64,000 bases of DNA from Arthrobacter sp. zg-Y919 (GTDB lineage: Bacteria > Actinomycetota > Actinomycetes > Actinomycetales > Micrococcaceae), in the NCBI RefSeq assembly GCF_030142045.1, contig NZ_CP126242.1:2914001-2978000 (forward strand), given 5' to 3'. The number at the start of each line of letters is the position of its first letter. Position 1 is the first letter of the stretch. The notes under the pieces are model-generated. The model searched no databases, was not told the DNA's origin, and saw only the letters and a program-made list of their open reading frames with translations. The position numbers and the translations under genes were made by a program. This document shows, in pieces, positions 5,011-48,141 of the stretch.

Positions 5011-5080
5011 GTTTCGTGGCTTTGCGTTTCGTGGCTTTACGTCTCTCGTCTTCGCGTTCCCGCCTTTGCGTTCCCCGCTA
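5009..5080. repeat. Short degenerate tandem repeat, 15-bp unit
   Basis: GCGTTTCGTGGCTTT occurs as a perfect tandem pair (5009-5023 and 5024-5038), then continues as two to three degraded copies (ACGTCTCTCGTCTTC, GCGTTCCCGCCTTT, GCGTTCCCC) up to the stop codon of the small gene on the other strand. It is noncoding and looks like slipped-strand expansion. Confidence 0.8.
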
Positions 5081-5266
5081 GTACCAAACCTCGTCCGCCC
5101 AGGCTGCGTCCCGCAGGTACTCGCGGGCGGGTCCTACGTTCCAAGCTTCGCCGTAGGGTGCCAGGACGCCGCTGGTTTTCAGGTCGGCCAGGACGTCTTC
5201 CGAACAGCCCAGGACCGAGCCGAGTTCCAACGCGTCGGTTACGACTACTTCTTCGTGATCGGCCAC
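5078..5266 (-). CDS. Small unknown protein following the SpaB_C gene
   Basis: 62 residues, GTG start at 5266 with a purine-rich GGGAAGGGGG about 8 bases upstream. It lies 30 bases downstream of the SpaB_C gene on the same strand and is probably cotranscribed. The protein is acidic, with one Cys (Gly-Cys-Ser near residue 21), an Ala-Leu-rich middle and an aromatic C-terminus (REYLRDAAWADEVWY). No family was recognised. It could be a RiPP precursor or leader-binding partner for the neighbouring enzyme, but its C-terminal half has almost no Ser, Thr or Cys, which argues against a lanthipeptide or thiopeptide core. Codon use fits a real gene. Confidence 0.55.
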   Translation of the reverse strand: MADHEEVVVTDALELGSVLGCSEDVLADLKTSGVLAPYGEAWNVGPAREYLRDAAWADEVWY

Positions 5267-5296
5267 CGGATGGGCCCCCTTCCCATTAGTGCGCCG

Positions 5297-6256
5297 TCAG
5301 CGCTTATCGAGCAGAACCGATTCCCGTTCCGGACTCCAGGTCCGTGCATACAGTCCCATGGCCGCTTCCTCGCGAAGGCTCAGACCCAGGCGGTTCAAAA
5401 GCATATGCGCCTGATAGACCGTCAAATGCTGGGCGCTTCGGCTGAGCCGCGCCTTGTCGGCCCGGTACAGATAGGTATCGATTCCGCGGAACCAACGGCG
5501 CCGCCAGTTTTCCACGGCAGATTCTGCTGCGGTCGCCGCCATTAGCCGGTGGGTGGGCATCACCTTGGCGCCCACCTGGACTGTCATGGCCTGCCGCACC
5601 CCGGCCGCCCGCGGCCCGAACCCTGCCGTGCAGCTGCGCAGGTGGCTGTCCCAGTAGTAGTCCCAGGAGAGTCGGCGGCGGTCCGGCCAGGCCGAGGCGC
5701 GCGGTCCCTTCATCATGCTCCTGGCCGCATCGAACAGCAGGAGCGAGCCAAGCGCCCAGCGGTTCTGGACCTTGGGGAAACGTGCAGTGGCCCAAGTGGC
5801 CAAATCGGAGGAGAGTTCAAAAACCTCTTCAGCGAGGGAAAGTCCTTCCACCCCGCCGTACTTGGCGAGATCCGCCTCGACCCGGGGGTCCTGGGGTTCC
5901 GCGCCACCGGGGCTGAGCCGGTCCGTGGCGGGTTCGGTGATCTGTTGGCTGGTCTCAAGGTGCCCGATGACACCGCTCGACTGGTCCTGCAGGGCCACCA
6001 ACAGTGACTGCAGCCGGTCCAGGGTGTTCGTCGTGGCCAGCACCCGCAGTTTCACGTGTGCGTGGGCGGGGTCCGAGCAGCGGGTGTAGTACCAGCGCTG
6101 CGCCCCCAGGACCTGTGCCTGAGCTGCCAGCGGGGTAACCAGTTCTCCGACGATGCCGTCCGCTACATCGAAGCCCCCTGTATGAATGGAGAGCGACCAC
6201 CAATGAGTGCCCGGTTGCGTCCGTGAGGCTGGTCGAACTGCAGCTAGCTGGCTCAT
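5297..6256 (-). CDS. Stand-alone lantibiotic dehydratase C-terminal (SpaB_C, thiopeptide-type) protein
   Basis: 319 residues matching the SpaB_C/thiopeptide-type bacteriocin biosynthesis domain, which in full LanB enzymes eliminates glutamate from glutamylated Ser/Thr and in thiopeptide systems also occurs as a separate elimination or [4+2] cyclisation enzyme. Visible family landmarks: WW at 19-20; RWYYTR at 54-59 followed by HAHVKLRV at 65-72 (family form RY.DP..HLRLR); an acidic KYGG segment at 132-135 with EE at 143-144; and AHMLLNRLG at 283-291 with the conserved His and Arg. No glutamylation domain, cyclase, peptidase or transporter lies nearby. ATG at 6256 follows GAGGGGAAAG. A second copy lies at 46402-47352. 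Substrate unknown. Confidence 0.75.
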   Translation of the reverse strand: MSQLAAVRPASRTQPGTHWWSLSIHTGGFDVADGIVGELVTPLAAQAQVLGAQRWYYTRCSDPAHAHVKLRVLATTNTLDRLQSLLVALQDQSSGVIGHLETSQQITEPATDRLSPGGAEPQDPRVEADLAKYGGVEGLSLAEEVFELSSDLATWATARFPKVQNRWALGSLLLFDAARSMMKGPRASAWPDRRRLSWDYYWDSHLRSCTAGFGPRAAGVRQAMTVQVGAKVMPTHRLMAATAAESAVENWRRRWFRGIDTYLYRADKARLSRSAQHLTVYQAHMLLNRLGLSLREEAAMGLYARTWSPERESVLLDKR

Positions 6257-6325
6257 ATGCGTCTTTCCCCTCGGGGTATGGTTACCGCCGCCGGCGGCCT
6301 TGCATTGTTTTGTCTACGTATCTTT

Positions 6326-6340
6326 GGCCCCTTGGGGGCC
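6326..6340 (-). promoter_or_regulatory. Hairpin just after the tiny ORF
   Basis: GGCCCC and GGGGCC pair around a 3-base loop, 5 bases after the stop of the 7-codon ORF on the minus strand. There is no following U run, so it is not a classic terminator; it could be an attenuator, a processing site or chance. Confidence 0.4.
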
Positions 6341-6345
6341 CTCAG

Positions 6346-6369
6346 TTAGAACCAATCCCAGCTCTTCAT
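6346..6369 (-). CDS. Possible 7-codon ORF, MKSWDWF
   Basis: ATG at 6369 to TAA at 6346-6348 reads Met-Lys-Ser-Trp-Asp-Trp-Phe. A GGGGG-containing Shine-Dalgarno-like run at 6379-6383 lies 9 bases upstream, as good as those of neighbouring genes. It precedes the SpaB_C gene on the same strand by 89 bases. Two readings are open: a very short substrate peptide for the SpaB_C-type enzyme, comparable in size with the five-residue biarylitide precursor, or a Trp-rich leader peptide for attenuation. It is short enough to occur by chance. Confidence 0.35.
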   Translation of the reverse strand: MKSWDWF

Positions 6370-6616
6370 GATTGCTATCCCCCTTGGGTCTCAGGCTGTT
6401 GCTCAGCCGGCGCCTTGATTTGACTCCGAAAGCTTCCCCCGCCGTCGCAGGGCCTGTAAATAGCCTCCGGTGCCCGGTTCCTGACATGTCCGGATGTGGA
6501 CCCGGAGGTACCGGGCTGTGGCCGGAGCCGAGGTGAAATCGGCCCGGCGCAGGAGATTTGCGCGGGAGCGGTGCCCTACCGGCGAAGTTGGCATTAACCT
6601 GTCATGACCTGCAATC

Positions 6617-6647
6617 CAAAGTGTGTTGCAGACACAAAACACATTTG
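6617..6647. promoter_or_regulatory. Imperfect inverted repeat upstream of the LuxR-type gene
   Basis: CAAAGTGTGTT at 6617-6627 is mirrored by AACACATTTG at 6638-6647 around a 10-base spacer, with one extra base in the left arm. It lies 80-110 bases before the regulator start in the divergent gap, a suitable place for an activator or autoregulatory operator. Confidence 0.4.
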
Positions 6648-6726
6648 CCACACGCGGACCGGAAACAGGACCCGCTGGGTAGTGTAGCGGTGGGTGCTTC
6701 AGCTGATGCTTTTGAAAGGATTCGCC

Positions 6727-7695
6727 GTGCTGTCTCAGGTTTCGCTCGACGTTTACCGTTTTGCCGTAAGCCGTCCGGGGTGGACGGCCGGAGAGGCTTC
6801 CGAGGCGCTGGGGTACACGAGCCGGGCCATCGATACCGCAATTGGGGAATTGACTACGCGCTGCCTCCTGCTCAAGCAGTCCGACGACTGCCCGAGCTAC
6901 ATCGCGGTGTCCCCGGATGTGGCCCTCGCCGAACTGGTTGATCCGGATGAACGTGCCCTCCTGGAGCTGCGGGGCAGGATCTATGCCCGCCGGAGGGAGA
7001 TGGCCGCATTGACGCCGGCCTACACCGAAGCACGTAAGCGTCTGGCCGCCGATGCCTCGGTGGAAGTGGTGGAGGACCAGGAAAAGGTCCAGCGGGTGCT
7101 GATCGAGTACGGGCGAAGCGCCACCGACCGGGTCCTCATCGCGCGTCCGGGGCATGGCGCCAATGCCGACATCCATGAGGAAAGCGTGCAGAAGGACCTT
7201 GACCTCCTGCGCAGCGGCGTCCGGCGGCAGACCCTGTACCACGCCAGCACCCGGGACCACGTGCCCACCCGCAAGGCTGTCGAGACCATCACCGCGGCCG
7301 GGGGGCAGTTCCGCACCCTTCCGTACATGCCGCTGCGGACCCTGATTTTTGATGAAAAAGTGGCAGTGGTTGCCCGCGAGCTGTATCCCGGCGATGTGGC
7401 GGGCCTGGTGGTCCGGGATCCGAACCTGATCCGGATCTTCGGGCTCCTTTTCGAGTTCGCCTGGGGCCTTGCGGAACCATACCTGTCCGACAATCCCGGC
7501 GGCGAAGGCCTCACGAGCACACAGCGCTCTGTCCTCACGGCACTGGCGTCCGGCTATTCGGACGAGGCCATTGCCCGCCGGGTGGGAATCAGCGTCCGGA
7601 CGTGCCGCCGCCATATTGCCTGGATGCTGGAGGAACTGGGCGCCGAGAGCCGGTTCCAGGCGGGAATCAAGGCGCATAAGGCCGGGTGGATCTAG
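6727..7695 (+). CDS. LuxR-family regulator with N-terminal TrmB-like winged helix
   Basis: 322 residues from the GTG at 6727, chosen because AAAGGA lies six bases upstream; an in-frame start at 6694 has no such site. Residues about 5-55 form a TrmB-like winged helix (WTAGEASEALGYTSRAID), the middle resembles the phospholipase D-like sensor part of such regulators, and about 255-310 form a LuxR helix-turn-helix (LTSTQRSVLTALASGYSDEA, ISVRTCRRHIAWML). This two-HTH architecture is common beside small peptide and natural-product loci in actinobacteria. Being divergent from the SpaB_C gene, it is the likely regulator of that locus. Confidence 0.8.
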   Translation: MLSQVSLDVYRFAVSRPGWTAGEASEALGYTSRAIDTAIGELTTRCLLLKQSDDCPSYIAVSPDVALAELVDPDERALLELRGRIYARRREMAALTPAYTEARKRLAADASVEVVEDQEKVQRVLIEYGRSATDRVLIARPGHGANADIHEESVQKDLDLLRSGVRRQTLYHASTRDHVPTRKAVETITAAGGQFRTLPYMPLRTLIFDEKVAVVARELYPGDVAGLVVRDPNLIRIFGLLFEFAWGLAEPYLSDNPGGEGLTSTQRSVLTALASGYSDEAIARRVGISVRTCRRHIAWMLEELGAESRFQAGIKAHKAGWI

Positions 7696-46401: not shown

Positions 46402-47352
46402 ATGAGCCAGCCAGCCACACTTCGCCCGGCTTCTCCCCCTTCTACCCACCTCCTCTGGTGGAACCTGACCGTTGATGCCGGCACCTTCGATCTGGCCGAC
46501 CGGATCATTAGTGACCTTGTCACCCCCCTGGTTGCGCAGGCGAGGCTGTGGGGAACCAAGCGGTGGTTCTACACCCGGAGAATGCAGCCGTCGAATGCGC
46601 AGCTCCGGCTGCGGATACTGGCCCCCTCGGAAACCCTGGACCGGTTGAAGTCCCTGTTGGGAGCCCTGCAGGAACAGTCCGGGGATCCGGTCCGCAGCCT
46701 AGCGGCAGTGCACGAGTTTAACGAACCGGTCCTGGACCGGACAGTGGGGACGGACGCCCTGCTGCCTTCGGCGGAGGCTGACCTGGCCCGCTACGGCGGA
46801 GTGGAAGGGCTGGCCCTCGCAGAGGAGGTCTTCGAGCTTTCTTCGGATCTCTGCCTCTGGGCCACCGCACGGTTCGGGAAGGCACAGAACCGCTCCGCAC
46901 TGGCTTCGCTGCTGCTCTTTGATTCCGCGTACGCCATGATGAAGGGGCCGCGGGCGTCCACCTGGCCGGACCGCCGTCGGGTCTCCTGGGAGTACTACTG
47001 GGACAGCCACCTCCACAGCTGCACAGCCTCGGATCCCCGGGCCGCCGGAGTCCAGAAGGCAACGGGTGCGCAGGCGCAGGCACAGCTGATGCCCGTGCAC
47101 CGGCTGATGATGGCCACGGCATCCGAATCCGCCGTGATGAACTGGCGCCGCCGCTGGCTGCGGACCATCGACACATACCTGTACCGGGCAGACAAGGCCG
47201 GAGCCAGCCGCAGCGCGCAGCACCTTACGGTCTACCAGGCGCACGGCCTGCTCAACCGGCTCGGATTCACGCTTCGCCAGGAGGCACTCATCGGGGTCTA
47301 CGCGAGGAACTGGAGCAGGGAGAAGGAGGCCGGTCTGACGGACACCACGTGA
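46402..47352 (+). CDS. Second stand-alone SpaB_C (thiopeptide-type) protein, paralogue of 5297-6256
   Basis: 316 residues. AAAGGA lies 5 bases before the ATG at 46402, and alignment with the first copy starts exactly at the shared Met-Ser-Gln, fixing the start against an open frame to 46144. More than half of residues appear identical to the first copy along the whole length, with the best blocks being EEVFELSSDL, MMKGPRAS, YYWDSHL, TYLYRADKA and SRSAQHLTVYQAH. The family landmarks WW near 19, RWFYTR, LRLRIL, YGGVEGLALAEE and LLNRLGF are kept. It has no adjacent RiPP genes. Function unknown; likely acts on a peptide or an aminoacyl intermediate as its relatives do. Confidence 0.75.
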   Translation: MSQPATLRPASPPSTHLLWWNLTVDAGTFDLADRIISDLVTPLVAQARLWGTKRWFYTRRMQPSNAQLRLRILAPSETLDRLKSLLGALQEQSGDPVRSLAAVHEFNEPVLDRTVGTDALLPSAEADLARYGGVEGLALAEEVFELSSDLCLWATARFGKAQNRSALASLLLFDSAYAMMKGPRASTWPDRRRVSWEYYWDSHLHSCTASDPRAAGVQKATGAQAQAQLMPVHRLMMATASESAVMNWRRRWLRTIDTYLYRADKAGASRSAQHLTVYQAHGLLNRLGFTLRQEALIGVYARNWSREKEAGLTDTT

Positions 47353-47409: not shown

Positions 47410-48141
47410 ATGAACTTATCCTCCGAGCAGCACTCCGTTGCCGCTGAACTGCAGCAGCTTCTACTGCAGACCGAATCGGTGGAGTTCTTCCTCGAAGGCT
47501 TTGTCTCCCATGCCGCGGAGCTTTTCAGCAGCGACGTCGAAGTCCTGGCCGGCGTGACCCTGCTGCGGAATAAGCAGGGTGCCACCGTAGCCAGCAGCAG
47601 TGAGGCCGCCCGTGCACTGGACGAAGTCCAGTACGGCTTCGGGGACGGTCCGTGCATGCGGGCCTCGCGAACGGGAAAAACCGTGCTGGTCGAAGATGTC
47701 CGCACCGACTCGCGGTGGCCGGACTATACCGACGCCATCCGTGACCGCGGGTTCTATTCCATCCTCGGCGTCCCGCTTCTCCTCGGCAGCGACGGGGGCG
47801 CCGGGTTGAACCTCTACGCCCGGGAGCCGGGGTACTTCACTCCGGAGGTCATCCGGACAGCAGATGCATTTGCCGCAGAGGCTGCGGTGACCCTGCGGAT
47901 AGCCGTTCAGATCGCCCGGCACAGGAGCACCGCCAACCACCTCCGGACGGCCATGCAGGCCCGGACCACCATCGACCTCGCCGTTGGAATCGTGATGGCC
48001 CAGAACAAGTGCGGCCAGGACGAAGCCTTCGAGATCCTGAGCCGTGCCTCCGGCAACCGAAACGTGAAACTCCGGGAGCTCGCTGAGCGCGTAGTGCAGT
48101 CCGTAACCTCCCAGACAGTGACAACGCACTTCGTCGACTAG
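47410..48141 (+). CDS. GAF-ANTAR domain regulator
   Basis: 243 residues. A GAF sensor domain spans about 20-165 (GFGDGPCMRASRTGKTVLVE, YSILGVPLLLG), followed by a coiled coil and an ANTAR RNA-binding domain (about 180-235; TTIDLAVGIVMAQNKCGQDE). ANTAR proteins bind paired hairpins in leader RNAs and prevent termination. The single Cys in GPCMRA is usual for this group. It starts 57 bases after the SpaB_C stop on the same strand, so it may share its transcript. Confidence 0.88.
   Translation: MNLSSEQHSVAAELQQLLLQTESVEFFLEGFVSHAAELFSSDVEVLAGVTLLRNKQGATVASSSEAARALDEVQYGFGDGPCMRASRTGKTVLVEDVRTDSRWPDYTDAIRDRGFYSILGVPLLLGSDGGAGLNLYAREPGYFTPEVIRTADAFAAEAAVTLRIAVQIARHRSTANHLRTAMQARTTIDLAVGIVMAQNKCGQDEAFEILSRASGNRNVKLRELAERVVQSVTSQTVTTHFVD

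Follow-up and report, generated by a model that had tools for sequence, protein, structure and literature searches.

Near the start of the 64,000-nucleotide stretch of the Arthrobacter sp. zg-Y919 genome analysed here (the window; contig NZ_CP126242.1, positions 2,914,001 to 2,978,000) lies a small cassette built around a stand-alone SpaB_C protein. Upstream of this protein is a seven-codon open reading frame (ORF) for the peptide MKSWDWF, downstream is a 62 amino acid protein, and across the intergenic region is a divergent LuxR-type regulator (Table 1). An original prediction, made from the sequence alone, had named these four parts, and all four are confirmed where it placed them. The SpaB_C protein of the cassette is stand-alone, as described there; a second lone copy in the window and a third in the genome had gone unmentioned. 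Named matches in the protein searches point to Arthrobacter as the genus.

A conserved cassette around a stand-alone SpaB_C protein

Using the SpaB_C protein as the only query, we searched 295 genomes of the family. At least 64 matched, and one locus was fetched from each of 64, picked by SpaB_C similarity only and not by peptide, regulator or tail. A small ORF carrying W-[D/E]-W (in one case W-G-W) ends within 200 nucleotides upstream of the SpaB_C gene in 59 of the 64 genomes, and the motif RDA[A/V]WA is found near a C-terminus downstream of it in 58. The regulator lies inside the fetched stretch in 59 genomes, 56 of which are peptide-bearing. Peptide, regulator and the tail motif of the 62 amino acid protein occur all together in 55. 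In the three peptide-bearing genomes without an adjacent regulator, it is 8.8–9.1 kb distant; the tail motif is missing from peptide-bearing genome G285. The peptide was not found in five genomes (G008, G005, G022, G067 and G253). Two of these have small ORFs at a similar place that fall outside the pattern and were not counted (W-A-W-P in G067, Y-D-W-P in G008). As a control, the same test gave no peptides and no tail motifs for 37 SpaB_C paralogues, and one peptide-like ORF for 422 other genes of the same loci. The co-occurrence of peptide and SpaB_C spans five genera, Arthrobacter and four others. These counts confirm that the tiny ORF and its neighbours form a conserved module, beyond chance. 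The original prediction had staked itself on small ORFs kept beside SpaB_C orthologues and on a catalytic His/Arg pocket; the small ORFs are kept, and the pocket His is largely retained (see below).

Crude pairwise ratios of nonsynonymous to synonymous substitution (dN/dS) against one genome of the same genus (G131) are 0.034 for SpaB_C, 0.050 for the regulator and 0.064 for the 62 amino acid protein (dS 1.6, near saturation). The cassette is retained in all 24 members of the genus found, and SpaB_C is one open frame in 23 of them. In an Arthrobacter locus of genome G058 (L144), the cassette SpaB_C appears as two separate overlapping matches (188 and 137 residues); the peptide, the regulator and the 62 amino acid tail are still there.

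The SpaB_C protein matches its Pfam model with 69.1 bits (PF14028; cut-off 24.4). It shares its fold with the LanB elimination domain and with the thiopeptide pyridine synthases, as had been expected. A search of solved structures with a SpaB_C profile returned MibB (E-value 0.003) and one unrelated weak match, while the single sequence returned no match. Which residues of the pocket are kept? Among 40 distinct module copies, the pocket His (of HMxxNRLG) is present in 38, with Gln in its place in L066 and L071, and R54, E147 and R289 are present in all 40. Paralogues without the peptide keep the pocket His in 5 of 38 cases. The HxRxR motif is found in all seven LanB-partnered relatives and is eroded in the module (H67 in 26 of 40; R69 in 24, with Lys in 12 more; R71 in 20 of 40). 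A passage of one report (PMC9011353) describes catalytic His and Arg residues as needed by a LanB lyase.

The original prediction had noted that no glutamylating partner, cyclase, protease or exporter accompanies these genes. The first absence extends from the locus to the whole genome, in which neither the Pfam model Lant_dehydr_N nor a LanB-N homologue search finds a partner. None of 28 module genomes has a LanB-N homologue by this search, which did find one in the positive controls G005 (the source of the query), G598, G022 and G253; the Pfam model missed G253. By eye, no exporter or protease was recognized in the adjacent genes and no cyclase nearby.

Arthrobacter genomes carry extra SpaB_C genes (e.g., at L036, L042, L049 and L052), with at least seven matches, fragments included, in some. 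They are singletons in unrelated neighbourhoods, their upstream DNA is often alignable, and their pocket His is mostly lost. The scattered genes resemble a gene family that is specific to this lineage and may be mobile. Some C-type paralogues have short ORFs ending in Trp upstream; these lie in alignable DNA with no conserved frame, and we dropped them as candidates. In the window, the second SpaB_C gene is followed after 57 bp by a gene for a GAF-ANTAR protein (47410–48141, + strand). L034 and L081 have comparable pairs, and in L078, L085 and L086 it is the main cassette that has GAF-ANTAR genes in its vicinity. A SpaB_C protein with 64% identity (P0111) is filed under Vibrio cholerae, most likely in a mislabelled or contaminated record.

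The best conserved part of the 62 amino acid protein is its C-terminal stretch. In L069, L070 and L090 the N-terminal half is different and the tail is retained. Pfam gives nothing better than an E-value of 0.014 over 35 members, and an AlphaFold2 model is poor (pLDDT 60). The best matches to known folds, phage Xis and TniQ, both have an E-value of 3.7 and were rejected as not significant; a winged-helix reading is a guess.

Table 1. Position, strand and basis of the cassette features and of the SpaB_C paralogue in the window.
Feature	Position	Strand	Basis
62 amino acid protein, conserved C-terminal motif YLRDAAWADxxW	5078..5266	-	ORF and tail motif
Stand-alone SpaB_C (Lant_dehydr_C) protein, 319 amino acids, one domain throughout	5297..6256	-	PF14028
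G+C hairpin immediately 3' of the peptide-gene stop codon	6326..6341	-	stem compared with shuffles
Peptide gene of seven codons (MKSWDWF), belonging to the W-[D/E]-W peptide family	6346..6369	-	ORF with G-rich ribosome site
20-nucleotide block GGGGAAGCTTTCGGAGTCAA, 5' of the peptide gene, near-invariant within the genus	6420..6439	-	alignment of 16 Arthrobacter sequences
Conserved box CATGTCAGGAACCGGGC, candidate operator	6472..6488	-	alignment; function inferred
Conserved box CATGACAGGTTAATGCC, candidate operator, CATGnCnGG core shared with CATGTCAGGAACCGGGC	6590..6606	-	alignment; function inferred
Divergent LuxR-type regulator, 322 amino acids	6727..7695	+	GerE domain, residues 262-312; N-terminal helix-turn-helix TrmB-like by eye
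Second stand-alone SpaB_C paralogue, 64% identical; context, outside the cassette	46402..47352	+	no W-[D/E/G]-W peptide, no 62 amino acid tail motif

Two forms of the Trp peptide and the DNA around its gene

The peptide takes two forms. In all 24 Arthrobacter genomes it has 7–17 residues, ends in K-[S/V]-W-[D/E]-W-[F/I/L] and is without a leader. The window has only seven sense codons between the preceding in-frame stop and the peptide start, and the last six codons align gap-free within the genus. In the 35 peptide-bearing genomes of the other four genera, the precursor has 44–93 residues; by eye, it starts with basic residues and contains a hydrophobic stretch and an AxA-like region. A signal-like leader is thus seen in 35 of 59 genomes and not in the other 24; hydropathy was computed for seven leader-bearing and five leaderless examples, and the leader was otherwise judged by eye. 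In 17 of the 59 genomes the core is present in two to six copies; G053, for example, has GVWDWPQQ six times, and G025 has four copies. The original prediction of a very short substrate therefore holds for one genus, whereas the other four have a leader-bearing and often multi-copy precursor.

Is the core conserved as a peptide? Over 30 sequence rows (some genomes were re-fetched) both Trp codons are invariant, while Asp is encoded by GAC or GAT and Glu by GAA or GAG. This synonymous variation means that the residue between the two Trps is conserved as an amino acid and not as a codon. No Ser, Thr or Cys is conserved in the core. In the SpaB_C tree, the leader-bearing lineages lie outside, and the leaderless genus lies inside together with most of its extra paralogues. 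The node uniting the genus with these paralogues has a support of 0.34 and other inner nodes are also weak, so that loss of the leader in Arthrobacter is probable rather than proven. A limited literature search turned up nothing on these W-[D/E]-W peptides, which does not establish their absence from print.

We aligned 16 Arthrobacter upstream regions. The 20-nucleotide block GGGGAAGCTTTCGGAGTCAA sits 50 nucleotides before the peptide start, and an 18-nucleotide part of it (up to two mismatches) is single copy in each of three Arthrobacter genomes. In other genera this part is absent from four of five genomes, and the fifth (G193) has one two-mismatch match far from the cassette. The alignment also shows two boxes, CATGTCAGGAACCGGGC and CATGACAGGTTAATGCC, with a common CATGnCnGG core. 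Just after the peptide gene, the best hairpin stems of 18 Arthrobacter sequences contain 4.7 G-C pairs on average, compared with 2.5 ± 0.23 (maximum 3.17) in 300 mononucleotide shuffles. The hairpin has no U run, and its position after the peptide gene is consistent with production of more peptide than downstream protein. Some loci outside the genus, but not all, have hairpins of different sequence.

The regulator and the Trp peptides beside its relatives

The regulator had been described as having two helix-turn-helix (HTH) domains. The C-terminal LuxR-type one is a full Pfam match (GerE, PF00196; 36.2 bits, cut-off 23.5), while the TrmB-like N-terminal one is recognized by eye only. No tetratricopeptide repeat (TPR) domain is detected in the regulator or in SpaB_C; their Pfam matches are HTH-type families, a weak DUF7436 and PF14028. 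The two proteins differ in distribution: among 394 genomes of the class, relatives of the regulator (E-value ≤ 1e-15) occur in at least 161 and SpaB_C of this type (E-value ≤ 1e-10) in at least eight, two of them in the window's own family.

What lies beside these regulators where they belong to other families? We examined 88 such loci, the 28 best and 60 chosen from the listed matches. In 23 of them a divergent, signal-like small ORF has Trp within its last 15 residues. There are 26 such Trp ORFs, whereas the rate on 800 kb of control strand from ten of these genomes predicts 2.45; because of non-independence among the loci, the small Poisson value should be read as a guide only. One peptide was counted twice (L100/L164), and a few positives are doubtful (e.g., L097). 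The counting rule missed L121, a clear case with three copies of GFDWG, and L102, which starts 507 nucleotides upstream of the regulator match so that the search interval was misplaced, was counted as a miss. The peptides end in DSLWD, GDNIWM, DPIWG or DSLGWG, or carry repeats (five of DSGWD/N, two of GDMGWQ, two of DLPWT). In 20 such peptide loci of 8.9–12 kb, no LanB or SpaB_C was found (tblastn, E-value 1e-4). As Trp peptides are found beside these regulators without SpaB_C, the peptide type follows the regulator. From these sequence comparisons, SpaB_C and its 62 amino acid companion look like an addition in the window's family.

In 7 of the 20 large-genome loci (L245, L249, L252, L254, L255, L257 and L259), a second small protein of about 70–120 amino acids (MYLVH...EDGLEH...DLxLFL...) adjoins the peptide. 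Six of the seven were scanned and have no Pfam or NCBIfam match. We rejected the idea that this protein, about 100 amino acids long, is the N-terminal subdomain of SpaB_C (profile comparison probability 0.4%, no sequence support). Its profile found nothing in the window's own genome, in a search without positive control. Next to multi-copy DSGWD/N peptides, the small ORFs L256:3317-3634 and, by eye, L258:8092-8439 look like the beginning of a Rieske oxygenase large subunit.

A candidate peptide signal compared with known systems

We favour, at evenly poised confidence, the reading of the cassette as a peptide-signal/regulator module to which SpaB_C and the 62 amino acid protein were added as peptide-handling proteins. 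The signal would be a short, ribosomally made peptide built around a W-[D/E]-W core, and the divergent LuxR-type regulator is its most likely receptor, presumably controlling the shared intergenic region through the two CATGnCnGG boxes as operators. Elsewhere, in the four genera whose precursor has a signal-like leader and often tandem copies, the peptide would be secreted, processed extracellularly and re-imported. In Arthrobacter the leader is missing, and a peptide of about mature length would be made directly in the cytosol. SpaB_C, freed of a glutamylating LanB partner, would most likely bind the Trp core in its old substrate pocket, and perhaps also the Trp-bearing tail of the 62 amino acid protein. 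The comparative data point primarily to a signal/regulator pair: relatives of the regulator have Trp peptides where no SpaB_C is found, and 37 SpaB_C paralogues are without the peptide.

Several observations weigh against this reading. The same rules gave no peptide in 65 of the 88 regulator loci; a single family of large genomes (f26, 5.8–11 Mb) accounts for 20 of the 23 positive loci; and a small control, the opposite strand of these regions, has Trp in 3 of its 12 signal-like ORFs. The Pfam glutamylation model (PF04738) matches in 1 of 25 module genomes (G256, on another contig). The leaderless seven-residue peptide has no evident way out of the cell, and SpaB_C rather than the regulator could be the receptor. 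Finally, the near-constant pocket His speaks for chemistry rather than mere binding and leaves real room for modification of the peptide.

That room is taken by a second reading, possible if on balance unlikely, in which SpaB_C acts chemically, with no need of glutamylation, on either the W-[D/E]-W core or the 62 amino acid protein's Trp tail, and the 62 amino acid protein recruits the substrate. The cassette would then be a minimal system for a ribosomally synthesized and post-translationally modified peptide (RiPP). In the wide sense, a RiPP calls for a ribosomal precursor beside a tailoring enzyme that modifies it, and here the co-occurrence of precursor and candidate enzyme is seen. This reading would account for the kept elimination fold, for the constant R54, E147 and R289, and for a pocket His that the paralogues mostly lose. 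RiPP operons commonly have several core copies and a hairpin that separates the peptide gene from the enzyme gene. However, with no conserved Ser, Thr or Cys in the core, neither known SpaB_C reaction applies as known; HxRxR is eroded and two copies have Gln for His. A secretion-type leader is unusual on a cytosolic substrate, the adjacent genes hold no exporter or protease recognizable by eye, and similar Trp-motif peptides occur where SpaB_C is not found.

It is improbable that the product is a secreted Trp-rich antimicrobial or autotoxic peptide against which SpaB_C and the 62 amino acid protein give cytosolic protection. The Trp content, the signal-like leader in 35 genomes and the tandem repeats in 17 would suit such a peptide, but the core is not cationic, the leaderless 7-mer has no Sec route, the cassette is in every one of the 24 genus members found, and the constant partner is a transcription regulator. 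Control of SpaB_C by attenuation at a Trp-codon leader ORF, which the two Trp codons and the hairpin after the stop might suggest, is very improbable: in other genera the same core ends a precursor that has a leader and often several copies, it is the amino acid D/E and not its codon that is conserved, and the hairpin lacks a U run. That the tiny ORF is spurious and the locus a decayed LanB cluster, in keeping with the missing LanB partner, is scarcely credible given the peptide conservation, the controls and dN/dS values of 0.03–0.06.

We do not file the cassette as a lanthipeptide, thiopeptide or RRNPP system, because a defining feature of each was looked for and not found. The glutamate-elimination domain of LanB, full length in MibB and NisB or split in SptBb of SapT, shares the elimination fold with the cassette SpaB_C. 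In contrast to LanB systems, the cassette has no glutamylation protein found in its genome, no cyclase recognized nearby by eye, no conserved Ser, Thr or Cys in its core and an eroded HxRxR. With the thiopeptide pyridine synthases TbtD, PbtD and TsrL it shares the stand-alone SpaB_C fold. These enzymes act on bis-dehydroalanine peptides made with LanB-type enzymes, whereas here a LanB-type source of dehydroalanine substrate is not seen, as judged from the LanB-N search of the 28 module genomes and from the core. More distant SpaB_C relatives (28–37% identity) occur in split-LanB clusters of the same family (L061, L062 and L064). L062 also has a LuxR-type gene of the regulator's family (36%). 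Unlike the cassette, these three clusters keep a LanB-N protein, and no W-[D/E/G]-W peptide was found there. An M50-like membrane protein is seen by eye in L061 and L062.

Since SpaB_C is under strong selection, no LanB partner is found and the core cannot serve either known SpaB_C reaction in its known form, the protein should have either a new chemistry or a new binding role. The two forms of one precursor gene range from a leader-bearing one with up to six core copies to one of seven codons, too small for routine gene finding to call.

The RRNPP signalling systems of Firmicutes (Phr/Rap, PapR/PlcR, XIP/Rgg) use a small precursor with a secretion leader, a short C-terminal active part, re-import by an oligopeptide permease and a cytosolic TPR receptor. 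The cassette may resemble them in its small precursor, with a leader that looks signal-like by eye in 35 of 59 genomes, its short conserved C-terminal part and its adjacent cytosolic regulator, and the large-genome peptide of L256 matches NCBIfam Phr_nterm below the cut-off (16.3 compared with 25 bits). It differs in having no detected TPR domain, a LuxR/GerE regulator together with SpaB_C, one leaderless genus and actinomycete hosts. To our knowledge, short linear peptides as signals have been described well in Firmicutes and little in actinomycetes. The cassette offers a concrete candidate for an actinomycete signal, conserved in five genera, whose peptide, regulator and DNA boxes can be named. 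It is tempting to propose, tentatively and at less than even confidence, an unnamed class of actinomycete signals in which Trp peptides, mostly secreted and often multi-copy, are paired with divergent LuxR regulators; the Arthrobacter form would be worn down to a leaderless seven-residue product acting inside the cell, with a lone SpaB_C, lacking any glutamylation partner, turned receptor or modifier of the Trp-Asp-Trp core.

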